Assembly (NCBI GenBank): GCA_003149555.1
Contig: QCWE01000013.1
Span: 1,961 to 13,874 of the forward strand
DNA: 11,914 nucleotides
DNA from: Candidatus Aquiluna sp. XM-24bin5
GTDB lineage: Bacteria > Actinomycetota > Actinomycetia > Actinomycetales > Microbacteriaceae
Reading direction: 5' to 3'
The position numbers and the translations under genes were made by a program. Shown here in pieces: positions 3,118 through 11,914 of the stretch. Within the stretch, counting starts at the first letter, position 1. Every line of letters starts with the position of its first letter. Under the pieces are notes generated by a model. The model was not told where the DNA came from, searched no databases, and saw only the letters and a list, made by a program, of their open reading frames with translations.

Positions 3118-4158
3118 ATGGATGTGTATATCGGATTGGACGTCTCACTCGCAAGCACGGCAATCTGCGCGGTGAGTGCGCAGGGCGAGATCGTGAAGGA
3201 AATGACCGCTGCCAGCGAGCCAGAGGACCTTGTTGCGACCCTGAAGGCGATGCCGGGTGACGTTATTGCGGTTGGTCTGGAAGCTGGTCCCCTCTCGCAA
3301 TGGCTATATCGGCATTTGACCAATGCAGGCTTTGCTGCGGTCCTGATGGAGACGCGGCAGGTCAAGGGTGCACTGAAAGCGATGCCCATCAAGACGGACC
3401 GTCGGGATGCAGAGGGGATTGCGCGGCTCGTGCAAATGGGCTGGTACCGACCTGTCCATTGCAAATCGATATCAGCTCAAGAGATGCGCGCCCTTCTGTC
3501 CACGCGCAAGACTGTCCAGCAGGCGGTGATCAATCTCGAACTATCGATCCGCGGCGTGCTCCGGAACTTTGGGCTGAAGATGGGACGTGTTGCGAAGGGT
3601 CGCTTTGAAGCACGGGTGCAAGAGTTGGCCGAAGGCAATCCCATGTTGGAGGCGGCTGCAAACCCGATCCTCGCCGCACGACGGATGCTGCGACAGGAGT
3701 TGGCCAGCTTGGAGAAGCTTCTGCGCAGCCACGCTAAGGAAGACCGGGTTTGTCATACGCTCATGACGATGCCCGGGGTTGGCGCTCTCATTGCGCTGAC
3801 CGTCAAGGCGGTCATTGATGATCCCGATCGGTTCCGATCCTCCAAGGACATCGGTCCGTGGGTCGGGTTGACGCCGAGGCGTGAACAGTCCGGCGAGCGC
3901 GACATCATTGGCCAAATCTCCCGGGCTGGCGATGTCGGATTGCGCACGGCGTTGTACCAGGCCGCGACAGTCATGCTGCAAAGGGGCCGCAAGAACTGGC
4001 TGACTGCATGGGCGCTGAATGTCGCCAAGCGGCGAGGGAAAAAGCGCGCTACTGTCGCGCTCGCCCGACGGATCGGGGTGGTTCTGCATCGTATGTGGAA
4101 GGACGGCACAGACTTCCGCTTCACCCGGGAAAAGGCCGCACACGTTGCTGCTGCATAA
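3118..4158 (+). CDS. IS110-family RNA-guided DEDD recombinase (transposase), apparently intact
   Basis: The product (346 aa) matches the usual length and layout of IS110-family transposases. The N-terminal RuvC-like DEDD domain (about 1-155) shows D8 in YIGLDVS, E55 in GLEAG, and D94 and D97 in KTDRRDAEGIARL. The C-terminal Tnp domain (about 210-310) carries the MPGVG helix-hairpin-type motif (218-222), the GLTPRREQSGE block and S268 in GQISRAGD, the probable nucleophilic serine. A coiled-coil region lies around 185-205. The start ATG has an AAAAGG ribosome site 7 nt upstream. The family inserts DNA by recombination guided by a bridge RNA from a noncoding end and leaves no classical terminal repeats, so the element's borders are not obvious here. 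No frameshift or missing catalytic residue is seen, so the gene could be active. Whether it belongs to the IS110 or the IS1111 subgroup is not settled by what I can see. Confidence 0.93.
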   Translation: MDVYIGLDVSLASTAICAVSAQGEIVKEMTAASEPEDLVATLKAMPGDVIAVGLEAGPLSQWLYRHLTNAGFAAVLMETRQVKGALKAMPIKTDRRDAEGIARLVQMGWYRPVHCKSISAQEMRALLSTRKTVQQAVINLELSIRGVLRNFGLKMGRVAKGRFEARVQELAEGNPMLEAAANPILAARRMLRQELASLEKLLRSHAKEDRVCHTLMTMPGVGALIALTVKAVIDDPDRFRSSKDIGPWVGLTPRREQSGERDIIGQISRAGDVGLRTALYQAATVMLQRGRKNWLTAWALNVAKRRGKKRATVALARRIGVVLHRMWKDGTDFRFTREKAAHVAAA

Positions 4159-4481: not shown

Positions 4482-4666
4482 CTGGCTTCGCTTTGAAATT
4501 TTCTCTTGACCTCAAACGCCCTGTTACAGAAGTCGCGTAGTGTGCACTCAGCAATGAATTTTCAAAAAATCCTTACAAAGAATTGATAATGTAAAGGGGA
4601 TCTCTATAAATTGCCGGTTTGTCTGTGAGCGGGTATAAATTTGCTAAGGATAGCAGCCTGGAGAAC

Positions 4667-4720
4667 GTGAACTACTCCCACCTGAAGGAAGGAGCTTCTG
4701 GCATCCCCGCAAGCTGGCAT
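4667..4720 (-). ncRNA. omegaRNA scaffold / right end of an IS200/IS605-type (TnpB) element
   Basis: Just past the stop of the TnpB-like gene and in the same sense lies a block reading GCGGGGATG, then a hairpin CTCCTTCC-TTCA-GGTGGGAG, then TAGTTCAC. On the minus strand the stem forms with one G.U pair and one mismatch; on the plus strand it would have two mismatches, so RNA in the gene's direction is favoured. The same block occurs, nearly identical, as an orphan copy at 9751-9794. In one frame it encodes LAGMPEAPSFRWE followed by TAG, parallel to TAGMVEAPSFREE in the orphan copy. omegaRNAs of TnpB elements are known to overlap the 3' end of tnpB and the right end, with the guide being the flanking DNA. 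The TTCAC at the end (4671-4667) resembles right-end cleavage pentamers of this family, as I recall them. The exact RNA 5' end is unknown. Confidence 0.6.
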
Positions 4721-4751
4721 TGAGTCATCTGGCGGCGACTTGAAACATTTG

Positions 4752-6578
4752 TCACTCAGCAGCCAGACCAAAGGCCTGACTGACTGTTTCTTTAGGCTTG
4801 AGGAAGAGCCAGCGTCCGATCATTTCGGCGCCGTGCATATCGGCATCCCAGGTCTTTCCATCTGCTGCAGACTTGAAGATCGGCCCACGTCGCTGTGCCT
4901 TATCGACAAGGCCGTGACGCCAGTCCGTGCTGCTGGTGAAGAAGCTGGGTATTTTGATCTGCGGGAGTCCTTTCCAAGCCAATTTGTCGTCAGCGCGGGA
5001 TGTATACTGCGATCGCGCGCCATTATTGATCATGCGGTTGAACGTCCGACCTTTGTAGCCGGCATCGTCGGTGGGAATGGTGACGTAATCGAGCTTCTCA
5101 CTCACCACCATTGCGTCATATTTCTGCGCCAGGCGCATGCGGATATTGGACACGTATCCAAACCAGCTCTTTTTCAAGCCTGCAATCGTGCGGTAGATGC
5201 CGCGACGACGCTCCTTAAGCTTTCCGATAGCGGCAAAAAGCCGGAAAAACCGGACATGCATCGAGGTCAGGCGCTTTGAATCTACCTCATTCAGCTCGCT
5301 CGGCACGCCCGCCAAAGCCTCATCCACAAATGCGTCATGATCGCGACGCAGGAGGATGTTGATTTCGCGTCGCAGGCGCGACAGGCGGGTATAGCCGAGA
5401 TCAATCTCTGAGCGGAGGCGATCGATCTTGCCCGCCAATTCGTTGATGCGGGCAAGGAAGTTGCGGCCGGAAAGCTGTAAGCTTTCAACAACCTCAATCT
5501 CCTCACCCGACACGTGAGAACGAAGATATTTCTCCGCTTTGGGTTTTGTCATCCCGGTGTCAGGAAGGGACGCAGGATCAACCGGTCTTGGAAGCTTCAA
5601 AACCACCAGGCTTGATGTGTTCACAACGCCAAAATCTTCCGCCACAACATGGGTGATTTGGGATAGATCGTCCTGAGCCTCTGGGCGCGCCAGCACGCCC
5701 CGGACCTGTGCTGTCTCAGGCCCCAGCTCAATCGCGAGACCACTCAGGCGGACTGGGCGATCGCTGTCCTGATGCTTGTGGATATCCCGCGCAACAGATC
5801 GTTCCAGGTTGATATCAAGATCGATACCGCGGCCACGCGCAGTGTGCGAGGCAATGGAAATGCGGTGGCCTGCTGACTTTCCTTCGCCGAGGCGCGCTCC
5901 GATCTTGTCCAAAGTCGAGGTGAGCGCAGCCTTTGTTCCCTTGATGCAACGATAGTCCAGGTGAAACTGTATCACAGCCTCACTGTCCCACTCGGGACAC
6001 TGAAACCGCTCCTGCACCTGATCCATCATTGCCAGAAGCGCGTCGCGCTGGAGATCAGATACCTCGCCTGTGTCCTCTCCGCCCCGGAGCTTGCGAAAGA
6101 ACGCCATCGCCTCATTGAAGTCGAGAGGCTCAGCCAGCGCTTTCATCGCCGACACATCCGCCTCGCCCAGTCGTCGCGACCACTCTTCGGGAAGATTCAC
6201 CAATCGCTTGGTTCCGTCTGAAAGCGGCCTATCTCCGACGGTATCAATATGCTTGAAGCAACCAAACAGATTTTTCTGCCGGCGCTTCATCTGCTCGATG
6301 ATTGCGGGTTTTGCGAGAAGGCGGCACTTCTCTGCCCAGACGACATTGAGAAATTTCTCCTCCGATACGGATTTTTGCTCCCGTAGCATGATCTCGTCGA
6401 GGGATTTTAGATCAGGGATTGGATCGGTCACATGCGTCGTGAAACCGGACCTAGCCATGCGACTTGTAACGACAAGGCATCGCGCGCGCAGCTCAGCAAG
6501 ATCATGCGACAAGGCGGGGCGGCCGAGATCGGCCATCCGCTTCAACATGTCTTTGGTTTTTCCATTGCCGTACGCCAA
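4752..6578 (-). CDS. Divergent TnpB/Cas12-like RuvC nuclease (TnpB-related protein), zinc ribbon lost
   Basis: The product (608 aa) ends in a split RuvC fold like that of TnpB and Cas12. RuvC-I is VVAEDFGVVNTSSLVVLKL with D315; RuvC-II is YDAMVVSEKLD with E494; RuvC-III is WDADMHGAEMIGRW with D580 (D578 also acidic), closer to the DADxxGA form of large Cas12 proteins than to the DxNAA form of TnpB. Between RuvC-II and RuvC-III the TnpB landmark TSxTCxxCG appears as TSSTDWRHG (548-556), and the second CxxC pair is also gone, so no zinc site remains. The N-terminal half (1-310) is much longer than in ISDra2 TnpB (408 aa in total) and unrecognised. A basic coiled coil (about 372-412) and more helices are inserted between RuvC-I and II. 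The frame opens with TTG at 6578; ATGs at 6548 and 6536 are alternatives, and no strong ribosome site settles it. A TnpB-type right end follows the stop; no tnpA and no CRISPR array is visible. The three acids suggest an RNA-guided nuclease; this is inference. Confidence 0.75.
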   Translation of the reverse strand: MAYGNGKTKDMLKRMADLGRPALSHDLAELRARCLVVTSRMARSGFTTHVTDPIPDLKSLDEIMLREQKSVSEEKFLNVVWAEKCRLLAKPAIIEQMKRRQKNLFGCFKHIDTVGDRPLSDGTKRLVNLPEEWSRRLGEADVSAMKALAEPLDFNEAMAFFRKLRGGEDTGEVSDLQRDALLAMMDQVQERFQCPEWDSEAVIQFHLDYRCIKGTKAALTSTLDKIGARLGEGKSAGHRISIASHTARGRGIDLDINLERSVARDIHKHQDSDRPVRLSGLAIELGPETAQVRGVLARPEAQDDLSQITHVVAEDFGVVNTSSLVVLKLPRPVDPASLPDTGMTKPKAEKYLRSHVSGEEIEVVESLQLSGRNFLARINELAGKIDRLRSEIDLGYTRLSRLRREINILLRRDHDAFVDEALAGVPSELNEVDSKRLTSMHVRFFRLFAAIGKLKERRRGIYRTIAGLKKSWFGYVSNIRMRLAQKYDAMVVSEKLDYVTIPTDDAGYKGRTFNRMINNGARSQYTSRADDKLAWKGLPQIKIPSFFTSSTDWRHGLVDKAQRRGPIFKSAADGKTWDADMHGAEMIGRWLFLKPKETVSQAFGLAAE

Positions 6579-6761
6579 ATGGCCAATCTCAACCTGCTGC
6601 GTGAAAATGTTTCATTTCCATATATTCTGAATAGTTGCATTTACAATGAACTGTCCAAAATATCTAAGAATATTGCGAGGTCGAAGACCTCAAGTTGCCG
6701 CGCAGCCGCACATCCCGGCCATAAAGAGACCGGGTTTCCGTGCGCGGAGGATAAGGCTTAG
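6579..6761. promoter_or_regulatory. Upstream region of the TnpB-like gene, with hairpin at 6677-6691
   Basis: This stretch separates the TnpB-like gene from the IS5 fragment. It contains a perfect hairpin GAGGTC-GAA-GACCTC (6677-6691), about 100 bp from the gene start, which could be the subterminal left-end hairpin expected of an IS200/IS605-type element. The AT-rich segment 6605-6680 probably holds the gene's promoter; TATATG on the minus strand at about 6622-6617 could be a -10 box. A ten-codon reading frame starting with ATG lies just upstream of the TTG start but has no clear meaning. The segment from about 6726 to 6761 probably belongs to the left end of the IS5 remnant, since it leads directly into its start codon. 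Confidence 0.4.
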
Positions 6762-6863
6762 ATGTGTTTCTTTGACCTTTCCGACCGATATGCCAGCTTG
6801 TACGCGGAGAAAGACCCCCTACTGGAAATTGACCGAATTGTCCCGTGGGAGGACTTCCATTAA
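6762..6863 (+). pseudogene. IS5-family transposase, N-terminal 33-codon fragment
   Basis: The frame starts with ATG at 6762 and reads MCFFDLSDRYASLYAEKD, then [15 protein letters not shown] and TAA. This is the N-terminus typical of a group of IS5-family transposases (a start with FxDLSDRYASL and an IVPWEDF block at residues 27-32). Full proteins have about 300 or more residues, so the copy is cut almost at once. An AGG-rich leader (GCGGAGG at 6744-6750) gives a plausible ribosome site, and the preceding 35 bp look like the element's left end. The break coincides, within a few bases, with the stop codon of the convergent fcl gene: the two TAA codons overlap on opposite strands. It marks a past insertion or deletion at the end of the fucose operon. 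The fragment is surely inactive. Confidence 0.75.
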
Positions 6864-9702: not shown

Positions 9703-9789
9703 ACGGCTTTCAGTTTATCTCTCTCCTCCCGGGAAACCCCGTCGTTTACGGCGGGGATGGTAGAAGCTCCTTCCTTCAGGGAGGAGTAG
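9703..9789 (+). pseudogene. C-terminal tail remnant of a TnpB (IS200/IS605-type) gene
   Basis: In the frame ending at the TAG of 9787-9789 the sequence reads LSSRETPSFTAGMVEAPSFREE. As I recall, tails of the form ETPSFxAGxxEAPSxRE are common at the C-terminus of IS1341-type TnpB proteins, where the coding end doubles as the omegaRNA scaffold. The homologous tail after the TnpB-like gene reads LAGMPEAPSFRWE. Only about 20-28 codons remain; everything upstream has been replaced by the divergent glycosyltransferase gene, whose start codon is at 9702. The exact left border cannot be set. Confidence 0.45.
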
Positions 9790-9794
9790 TCCAC
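9737..9794 (+). ncRNA. Orphan omegaRNA scaffold / right end of a TnpB element
   Basis: Two strong hairpins stand in tandem: CCCCGTCG-TTTA-CGGCGGGG (9737-9756, one G.U pair) and CTCCTTCC-TTCA-GGGAGGAG (9767-9786, one G.U pair), followed by TAGTCCAC (9787-9794). From 9751 on the block is nearly identical to the one after the TnpB-like gene (4710-4667), but in opposite orientation. Here both stems are intact, whereas the other copy has lost the first one. No tnpB or tnpA lies next to it, so it is a remnant, though the RNA could still be made if a promoter lies within the overlapping start of the glycosyltransferase gene. The DNA after 9794 would be the guide if it were transcribed. Confidence 0.6.
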
Positions 9795-9826
9795 TAGCTC
9801 TTCAGAGCAACTTGAGCTTGTCGCTT

Positions 9827-9864
9827 GCGTGCACTCGCAGCGTGGAAACCACGGGATTGCACGC
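9827..9864. promoter_or_regulatory. Nested inverted repeats before the TOTE remnant
   Basis: An outer pair GCGTGCA (9827-9833) and TGCACGC (9858-9864) encloses an inner hairpin CGTGG-AAA-CCACG (9841-9853). All pairs are perfect. The structure lies 65 bp before the probable GTG start of the primase/helicase remnant and may be an operator or leader structure of that gene. No -35/-10 pair can be assigned with confidence. Confidence 0.45.
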
Positions 9865-9928
9865 CGGACCAATGCCATCGTATTCCTTGCTGATGGGCAG
9901 AACGGAAGAGACCGGGTGGAAATCACGA

Positions 9929-10309
9929 GTGACCGACAAGAGCTCTATTCAGGCGACCCTAGCCCGGGTTCGAGAGCGCCTAGCCGATCTGGACGACGAG
10001 CGGTGTGAGCTTCAGCGCGAGATGGAGGCACTTGAGGCTCGCCTCGCTTCAGAGCCCTCGCCAGCTGTGAAACAGCCGGCTTTCGAGAACGCCACCATCA
10101 CGAGCGCCTCGCCGTCGCACGAAAAAGTTGATTTGTTTCGCCGCCTGTTCGCCGGTCGCCCTGAAGTGTTTCCGCTGCGATGGAAAAACAGAAAGACTGG
10201 TCGCTCACTCACTCTGAGCAAGAGCCCCGTGACGGGCAGTCACCGCCACCCGCGCAGGGGGACAGGGGTGCAGGGGAGTGTCAACGACGCCCTGCCCGCA
10301 GGTGTATGA
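9929..10309 (+). pseudogene. TOTE-type conflict protein (archaeo-eukaryotic primase/helicase), N-terminal stub
   Basis: From GTG at 9929 the frame encodes a heptad-rich coiled coil (about residues 5-41, with LARVRERLADLDDERCEL), a linker, and then HEKVDLFRRLFAGRPEVFPLRWKNRKTGRS (64-93, described by its key residues F-R-L-F-G-R and R-K-T-G-R-S). This is the characteristic start of proteins annotated as TOTE conflict system archaeo-eukaryotic primase domain proteins, where a GYxPACxNEW segment should follow. Instead the frame continues for about 33 unrelated residues to a TGA at 10307-10309, so homology stops near 10207. Full proteins are many hundreds of residues and include a helicase. The open frame extends upstream to an ATG at 9812, but the extra residues look unlike protein. 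The stub shows that a conflict or mobile-element defence gene was once here. Confidence 0.7.
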
Positions 10310-10662: not shown

Positions 10663-10732
10663 GTGTGAAGGGATCACCAGTTTGAAGCGCCCCGGGTTTA
10701 CCGGAGGGTAAAACTCTCGAAGGATGACCCTC

Positions 10733-11065
10733 ATGGAAGAGAAAAAGCACACCCCGAAATACACTGCCGAATTTCGCGATCGCGGCGTCCGGCTTTATCG
10801 TGAGCATCGCTCGGATTACGCGAGTGATAACGCGGCTTACAAAGCGATTGCCGATAAGCTCGGCTGTTCGCATGACACGCTGCGCAGCTGGTGCATTCAA
10901 GCCTCGCGAGACGCTGGAGAGCGCGATGGTTTGAGCAGCGAGCAGAAGGCCCGGCTCAAGGCGCTGGAACGTGAGAACAAGGAACTTCGCACGGCCAACG
11001 AGATTCTGAAAAAAGCGTCAGCATATTTTGCTCAGGCGGAGCTCGACCGCCCGTTCCGCAAATGA
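10733..11065 (+). CDS. IS3-family OrfA (DNA-binding subunit)
   Basis: The product (110 aa) carries a helix-turn-helix of the HTH_Tnp_1 type (about 36-58, with AIADKLGCSHDTLRSW) that binds the inverted repeats, and a leucine zipper (about 75-97, LKALERENKELRTANEILKK) that mediates multimerisation. OrfA alone usually represses transposition. Two in-frame ATGs occur, at 10724 and 10733; the GAAGG at 10719-10723 touches the first but is 9 nt from the second, so the second is chosen. The gene overlaps orfB by 4 bp (ATGA at 11062-11065), and an A-rich slippery site lies near its end. Confidence 0.92.
   Translation: MEEKKHTPKYTAEFRDRGVRLYREHRSDYASDNAAYKAIADKLGCSHDTLRSWCIQASRDAGERDGLSSEQKARLKALERENKELRTANEILKKASAYFAQAELDRPFRK
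11009..11015 (+). promoter_or_regulatory. A6G slippery site for -1 frameshift (OrfAB)
   Basis: Six A residues followed by G lie within orfA, read AAA AAA GCG in its frame. A -1 shift here continues without a stop through 11016-11061 into the orfB frame, giving the OrfAB transposase. The phase is not the most usual A-AAA-AAG, so efficiency may be low, and reinitiation at the overlapping ATG of orfB is an alternative. Confidence 0.55.
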
Positions 11066-11914
11066 TCGCGTTCATTAACGATCACCGAGAGGAGTTTGGG
11101 GTCGAGCCGATCTGCCGCGTTCTGCCGATCGCTCCATCTACCTATTACGTTCACATAGCCATTGCCCGGAACCCTGAGCGGGCCTCGGACCGCGCGAAAC
11201 AGGACGCGAAGGATCTGGAGGACATCAAGCGTGTCTATGACAAGAGCAAAGGCCGATACGGGACCCGCAAGGTCTGGCATCAGCTCCGGCGAGAAAAGAA
11301 GGATATTGCGCGCTGCACGGTCGAAAGGCTGATGCGAGAACATGGATTGCAGGGGGTTACGCGTGGTAAGAAGCGCACGACAATCGCAGATCCAGCGCAG
11401 GCCTGCCCGGATGACAAGGTCAACCGAGAGTTCACGGCCACAGCCCCCAATCAGCTCTGGGTCTCAGATTTTACCTACGTGTCAACTTGGATGGGGATGG
11501 TCTACGTCGCTTTTGTTATCGACGTCTTCGCTCGCAAGATCGTCGGGTGGCGTGTCTCGACGTCGATGACCACGAGCTTTGTTCTCGATGCCTTGAACCA
11601 GGCTATCTGTCAGCGCTGTCCGGCAGAGGGGAGCGGACTGATCCACCATTCGGACCGCGGCAGCCAGTACCTGTCGATCCGCTACACCGAGCGCCTTGCT
11701 GATGCCGGCATCGATACATCGGTCGGCAGCGTCGGCGACAGCTATGACAATGCCCTAGCCGAGAGCATCATTGGCCTGTTCAAGACCGAAGTCATCGCGT
11801 TCTTCGGGTCTTGGAAATCCGTCGGTCATGTCGAGTGGGAGACCCTGCAATGGGTCAGTTGGTACAACACCGAGCGGCTACATGGCGCAATCGGCCATCG
11901 GCCGCCACAGGAAA
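11062..11914 (+). CDS. IS3-family OrfB (DDE integrase domain), cut by window end
   Basis: From the ATG overlapping the orfA stop, 284 codons are visible without a stop. The N-terminal part has the HTH_21-type region with GRYGTRKVWHQL (65-75), and the rve integrase core carries D136 in LWVSDFTYV, D198 in HHSDRGSQY and E234 in NALAESIIGLFKTE. The 35-residue spacing between the second D and E is the classic DD(35)E pattern. The segment WYNTERLHGAIGHRPP near the end is also typical and normally lies a few residues before the C-terminus, so nearly the whole gene is present. It supplies the catalytic part of the OrfAB transposase. Confidence 0.92.
   Translation, partial: MIAFINDHREEFGVEPICRVLPIAPSTYYVHIAIARNPERASDRAKQDAKDLEDIKRVYDKSKGRYGTRKVWHQLRREKKDIARCTVERLMREHGLQGVTRGKKRTTIADPAQACPDDKVNREFTATAPNQLWVSDFTYVSTWMGMVYVAFVIDVFARKIVGWRVSTSMTTSFVLDALNQAICQRCPAEGSGLIHHSDRGSQYLSIRYTERLADAGIDTSVGSVGDSYDNALAESIIGLFKTEVIAFFGSWKSVGHVEWETLQWVSWYNTERLHGAIGHRPPQE

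Follow-up and report, generated by a model that had tools for sequence, protein, structure and literature searches.

How far can a TnpB protein grow towards the size of a Cas12 effector, and can it do so without its zinc finger, while serving a transposon? The question is raised by an 11,914-nucleotide stretch of Candidatus Aquiluna sp. XM-24bin5 (contig QCWE01000013.1, positions 1,961 to 13,874; hereafter the window), which carries a gene for a 608-residue TnpB-like protein within a mobile element. TnpB is the enzyme family that gave rise to CRISPR Cas12. We consider it likely that the locus is an IS200/IS605-type mobile element without tnpA (presumably of the kind labelled IS1341-like), encoding an enlarged, zinc-free, TnpB-like RNA-guided nuclease. 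This reading builds on direct observations: the family and fold of the protein, its conserved triad, ends reused across copies and genomes, a conserved, structured right end in the sister copies, TNAT adjoining the left end, and surroundings free of CRISPR-like arrays.

4752..6578 (−): TnpB-like protein gene, 608 aa, with a TTG start and its stop codon at 4752-4754
4667..6750 (−): the mobile element in full (2,084 bp), of IS200/IS605 type and lacking tnpA; ends common to the copies on contigs C10, C12 and C7 (C7, right end only)

The open reading frame (ORF) of 608 codons on which the original prediction centred is present in the window; 4752-6578 are indeed the coordinates of the gene, but not of the mobile element, which spans 4667-6750 and has the gene as its sole long ORF. 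A search with the window protein returned 63 relatives at E ≤ 1e-3, mostly of about 600 aa, another full-length copy at 84% amino-acid identity is present in this genome, and dN/dS between the window and C10 copies is 0.22, so the signal of the window protein is more than chance. One interrupted and one truncated copy are also found in this genome. The assembly searched here differs from the one that yielded the window, for its contig C2 (10,466 bp) is shorter than the window (11,914 bp). Copy pairs in two other genomes gave dN/dS values of 0.37 and 0.35 (i.e., below 1 in 3/3 pairs); one member of the 0.37 pair has an in-frame stop. The source names of the relatives include Celeribacter, Pseudosulfitobacter, Paracoccus, Cereibacter, Agrobacterium, Sinorhizobium, Rhizobium, Microvirga, Methylobacterium, and Halomonas, and overlapping sets of 116 and 33 proteins were returned with the Halomonas relative and with an alignment as query, respectively. 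Against the NCBIfam model guided_TnpB the window protein scores 21.3 bits, below the curated cut-off of 100 bits. Among 54 relatives the same model gives the widest NCBIfam match (52/54 at E ≤ 0.1, an E-value criterion and not the 100-bit score), and the TNB domain PF07282 the widest Pfam match (54/54 at E ≤ 0.1).

5634..5636 (−): D315 codon, RuvC-I; D in 139/140 rows, N in 1
5097..5099 (−): E494 codon, RuvC-II; E in 139/140 rows, a gap in 1
4839..4841 (−): D580 codon, RuvC-III; D in 136/140 rows, a gap in 4

The catalytic residues were correctly named in the original prediction. The rows are those family proteins, 140 of the 163 gathered, that are 480 aa or longer. All three positions are filled in 136 of them, and 135 of these read D/E/D, the lone exception having N at the first. 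D315, E494, and D580 are likewise invariant in a 28-row alignment and across a 54-row alignment of the wider family. Homologues lacking these residues, one of the results that by the prediction would speak against it, come to a single row, the triad being kept in 135/136. The window protein shares with TnpB a RuvC fold with a D-E-D triad; the degenerate triad of an inactive TnpB regulator (which we take to be the one called TldR) is absent, the D/E/D being intact.

4845..4946 (−): zinc-free TNB region, residues 545-578, with TSSTDWR at its start (549-554); cysteine count zero

The four-cysteine TNB zinc finger, another mark of TnpB, is missing from the window protein. Where TnpB has CxxC…CxxC, the window protein has TSSTDWRHG…DGKT, a segment without cysteine, in agreement with the claim that both cysteine pairs are gone; the zinc-bearing relatives have TSxxCxxH at the position of TSSTDWRHG. 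Together with the curated score, the missing zinc finger marks the protein as a divergent, enlarged relative and not a standard TnpB. Of 153 scored rows, 60 have no zinc site, 74 have CxxH plus two further cysteines, 3 have a partial site, and 16 are ordinary TnpBs, an outgroup chosen by the CxxC…CxxC pattern and hence no independent zinc count. A row was called zinc-free when its first ligand position was not C (10 of the 60 carry a stray C elsewhere in the segment); three truncated rows were left unscored, and the scoring preceded the proteins found later with the 33-protein alignment search. The segment had been taken for a relic of TSxTCxxCG. The zinc ligands are indeed lost, but what stands in their place is a conserved replacement: in the 60 zinc-free rows, S549 and D552 are kept in 60/60, R554 in 59/60, and T551 and D573 in 58/60. 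From this conservation we infer that the TSxTDxR residues may stand in structurally for the lost zinc site. On a tree of 95 of the 153 rows (thinned at 78% identity, zinc columns excluded, SH-aLRT support only), the zinc-free label requires 2 changes. Rooting on the distant TnpBs places the zinc-free rows at the base, with a program warning on long branches; the direction would nevertheless be zinc loss, given that TnpB usually bears zinc.

6706..6747 (−): left-end hairpin, by folding; a like stem in the 6 other element left ends folded
6751..6755 (−): CTTAT, presumed target or transposon-associated motif (TAM) adjoining the left end; TNAT there in 8/8 left ends

Four copies in the window genome share the right end (window 4667), and three of them the left end (6750). 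In the C10 copy, 2,933 bp long, an IS5-family insertion separates the left end from the gene; the C12 copy (1,468 bp) has deletions and an interruption, and the C7 copy is 5′-truncated. Elements in other genomes measure 2,007, 2,007, 2,035, 2,039, and 2,143 bp. TNAT adjoins all eight left ends (CTTAT once, TTTAT twice, TTCAT four times, CTGAT once), 15-16 nt ahead of the ACC that opens the left-end hairpin; the left boundary was taken from the copies in the window genome and elsewhere set by the TNAT motif and hairpin, a procedure that favours the TNAT match. In being a precisely bounded mobile element, with hairpins at its ends and a target motif rich in T, the locus again resembles TnpB elements. 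There is no tnpA in the element, and the window genome has six Y1 matches elsewhere, with Y1 transposases on contigs C3, C5, and C10, which may act in trans on these ends.

4667..4755 (−): right end, presumed omegaRNA core, in the order GTGACAAA, stem-loop 1, stem-loop 2, GTTCAC; like plan in 10/10 right ends
4647..4666 (−): presumed guide, 20 nt of flank after the right end, by analogy to ISDra2 (PMC8612924)

The noncoding core of the right end starts with GTGACAAA and ends with GTTCAC in 10/10 cases, with two stem-loops in between in all ten folded right ends. The octamer overlaps the stop codon in the window, and follows or overlaps the TAG stop differently in genomes G777 and G780, so that its conservation is not explained by coding. 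Stem-loop 2 varies in sequence while its pairing is kept between genome groups (judged by eye, without covariation statistics). Compared with shuffles, right ends fold with z = −5.0 (C10; −4.96), −2.4 (G777), −5.8 (G778), and −2.6 (G779); Rfam has no match within the element. Within a genome, the left-end hairpins look like stem-loop 2, which would be expected of a TnpA binding both ends, and the conservation may therefore serve the DNA, the RNA, or both.

The window protein most likely works like TnpB with a guide RNA from the right end, by analogy to ISDra2 TnpB (PMC8612924). The 3′ end of the gene and the right end would be made into an omegaRNA with the flanking 16-20 nt (about 16 nt on the ISDra2 analogy) as guide; the protein–RNA complex would cut the site emptied by excision, recognised by TNAT and the guide match; repair from a sister copy would then restore the element, which a TnpA would mobilise in trans, and the TSxTDxR residues would assume the structural role of the lost zinc site. 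All parts of such an ISDra2-like mechanism are present save tnpA in the element.

6756..6860 (+): leader and 5′ portion of a transposase gene of the IS5 family, forming the left side of the site that the element invaded; an insertion sequence (IS) copy on contig C8, itself intact, matches at 83% through the junction

Joining the two flanks of the window copy gives a sequence that agrees with contig C8 of this genome at 151/183 positions (83%) through the junction; the IS5-family transposase is intact on C8, and the window keeps its 5′ part only. No clean empty site was found in 198 genomes of the G778 family, in which partial matches were all short, or for two sites sought in plasmids; for the IS5-joined site, too, none was found, the transposase part alone being matched.

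Several observations weigh against a working nuclease of this kind. The window protein falls below the cut-off of every curated family model tried, and, with no tnpA in the element, action in trans of any TnpA on these ends is presumed only. The unoccupied C8 site shows an indel of 3 nt right at the junction, lacks a clear TNAT, and so supports insertion without target duplication, not the exact original target. The right-end stems could also be DNA hairpins for TnpA instead of RNA. Furthermore, the window right end itself folds no better than chance would have it (z = −0.27, with 76/200 shuffles folding as well, against −4.96 for the C10 sister), at −24.9 kcal/mol where three sister copies reach −36.5 to −43.8 kcal/mol, and the mismatches in its stem-loop 1 suggest that this copy may be losing its RNA. 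It is possible, if rather doubtful, that the window copy no longer works and is decaying, in a family that is active otherwise: much of stem-loop 1 is gone, and other copies are damaged too (C12, C7, C10, and one Gemmobacter copy with an in-frame stop), but the frame is open over 608 codons with a dN/dS of 0.22 to the C10 copy, the triad and the conserved motif are intact, and both ends are present. Finally, Cas12m orthologues with D-E-D reportedly do not cleave double-stranded DNA (PMC11013384), and the triad is therefore no proof of cleavage. An RNA-guided DNA binder or silencer, acting like Cas12m or like an inactive TnpB regulator, nevertheless seems to us very unlikely: although the dimensions nearly equal those of Cas12m, which binds without cutting, D-E-D orthologues included (PMC10442227, PMC11013384), D/E/D is kept in 135/136 rows here and is often changed in Cas12m (PMC11013384), and conserved mobile-element ends suit a nuclease that keeps the element in place.

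5118..5459 (−): long helices between RuvC-I and RuvC-II, residues 374-487, by model secondary structure; 25 K/R and 13 D/E in 114 residues

The protein is enlarged at two places. The distance of 179 residues from D315 to E494 given in the original prediction holds, and is typical of the family (median 172.5, range 162-184, 136 rows), against 71-104 in 16 ordinary TnpBs (84 in 12/16; the aligned residue is not E in 2/16, whose values are doubtful). The residues before the first Asp have a median of 315 over the same 136 rows. Compared with ISDra2 TnpB, the window protein has 608 versus about 400 aa, TSxTDxR in place of a CCCC zinc finger, 315 versus 191 residues before RuvC-I, and 179 versus 87 from D to E (ISDra2 residue numbers from PMC10097598). 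The N-terminal half, previously described as new, matches the WED-REC lobes of TnpB/Cas12. Both enlargements (N-terminal, and RuvC-I to RuvC-II) are found in the zinc-bearing relatives too, so enlargement is not tied to the zinc change.

These dimensions bring the family close to Cas12m, with triad positions of 317/485/579 in Cas12m2 (168 from D to E; PMC10442227) and 322/497/590 in GoCas12m (175; PMC11013384). The family could thus be a transposon-borne sister or ancestor group of Cas12m and not an independent enlargement, which we regard as unlikely. Besides the nearly equal medians, Cas12m aligns the most residues (424) among the TnpB, Cas12f, and Cas12m rows compared; the comparison of the inserts is one of length. 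Sequence-profile ranking against the PDB, on the other hand, puts Cas12f first and Cas12m4a lower (7e-9 vs. 1.4e-4; 1.2e-7 vs. 1.1e-5 in another run), both matches being confined to the C-terminal region, and the zinc ligands are CxxH in the family and HxxC in Cas12m2 (PMC10442227). Unlike the window protein, with its D-E-D triad and a mobile element with its own right end, Cas12m has a CRISPR array with a short CRISPR RNA, an HCCC zinc finger, and a triad often altered to H-D-D or N-D-D (PMC11013384), whereas Cas12f is a shorter CRISPR effector with a zinc-binding TNB. Assignment to a known Cas12 subtype was tried with PADLOC and rejected, as the 54 relatives gave only weak matches (best 9.4e-9), mainly to Cas12f, Cas12u2, u3, u4, and one Csx1 model. 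No Cas12m model occurs among their PADLOC, NCBIfam, and Pfam matches, which leaves room for kinship with Cas12m. Repeats resembling a CRISPR array (an exact 21-mer three times at 45-90 nt spacing) were absent from 20 stretches totalling 171,482 bases, some overlapping, and Cas1 had no match in 4/5 genomes, the remaining one giving a single match at 28 bits against a cut-off of 22.3.

The enlargements of the REC lobe and the RuvC insert in Cas12m have been read as first steps toward adaptive immunity. The independent step from TnpB toward Cas12 outside a CRISPR locus that had been proposed for the window protein is supported in part. No array was found; the gene lies in an IS200/IS605-type element, and both enlargements are Cas12m-like in size. 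Tentatively, and with somewhat less than even confidence, we propose a transposon-borne lineage of RNA-guided nucleases which carries the enlarged REC lobe as well as the helical RuvC insert, without a CRISPR array, and in part of which a conserved TSxTDxR motif replaces the zinc site. If true, Cas12-like size would have arisen to serve a mobile element, and the superfamily could do without the zinc finger. Part of the TnpB-to-Cas12 story becomes testable in one element family that has Cas12m-like dimensions and a right end of its own, and whose members include both zinc-bearing and zinc-free proteins: one may ask what the enlargement does, e.g., whether it accommodates a guide–target duplex longer than the 12 bp of TnpB, and whether activity survives loss of the zinc finger. 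The window protein may be a compact effector unnamed by present curated models. A full-text literature search found no paper on such a family; its coverage did not extend to the main TnpB/Cas12 classification (PMC10691335) or to PMC12171694, where the clade may already be described, and novelty is therefore provisional.

Profile searches found it in the window's own genome only, both among 397 genomes of the window's family and among 385 of its class; among 398 genomes of the phylum, the own genome alone matched strongly; weak matches limited to the C-terminal part came from 18 more, and the top one among them (L047) is a 621-aa ORF with four cysteines. Among 394 genomes of the G777 family, G777 matched strongly and one other weakly. 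A search of genome contigs gave 6 loci in 4 genomes. The window protein had no match in plasmids and phages; with two zinc-bearing relatives as queries, plasmids gave one weak match (13% coverage) for one and none for the other. Viral contigs gave one partial locus in a first search and none in a second. The Gemmobacter copy L102 (G778:C2:335000-346000) lies amid ORFs resembling, by eye, tellurium-resistance TerD-type proteins.

9719..9794 (+): mini-element, 76 bp, in which a left end runs directly into a right end; preceded by TTTAT and closing with AGTCCAC; 88.6% identical to the window right end over 44 bp

This mini-element may be a remnant moved in trans. Adjoining it is a fragment at 9812-10309 (+) with a weak match to the TOTE primase-polymerase domain (Pfam 5.8e-5; PADLOC PrimPol 5.4e-7). 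Elsewhere in the window, an IS110-family transposase (3118-4158 (+); NCBIfam 237.6 bits) lies 508 bases from the right end of the TnpB-like element, an ALIL pseudoknot (11020-11136 (+); Rfam RF01497, 111.8 bits) sits in an IS3-type element whose first ORF is at 10724-11065, and a BLUF blue-light sensor gene stands beside a 466-aa ORF, GGDEF/EAL-like by eye, at 496-2354 (−).
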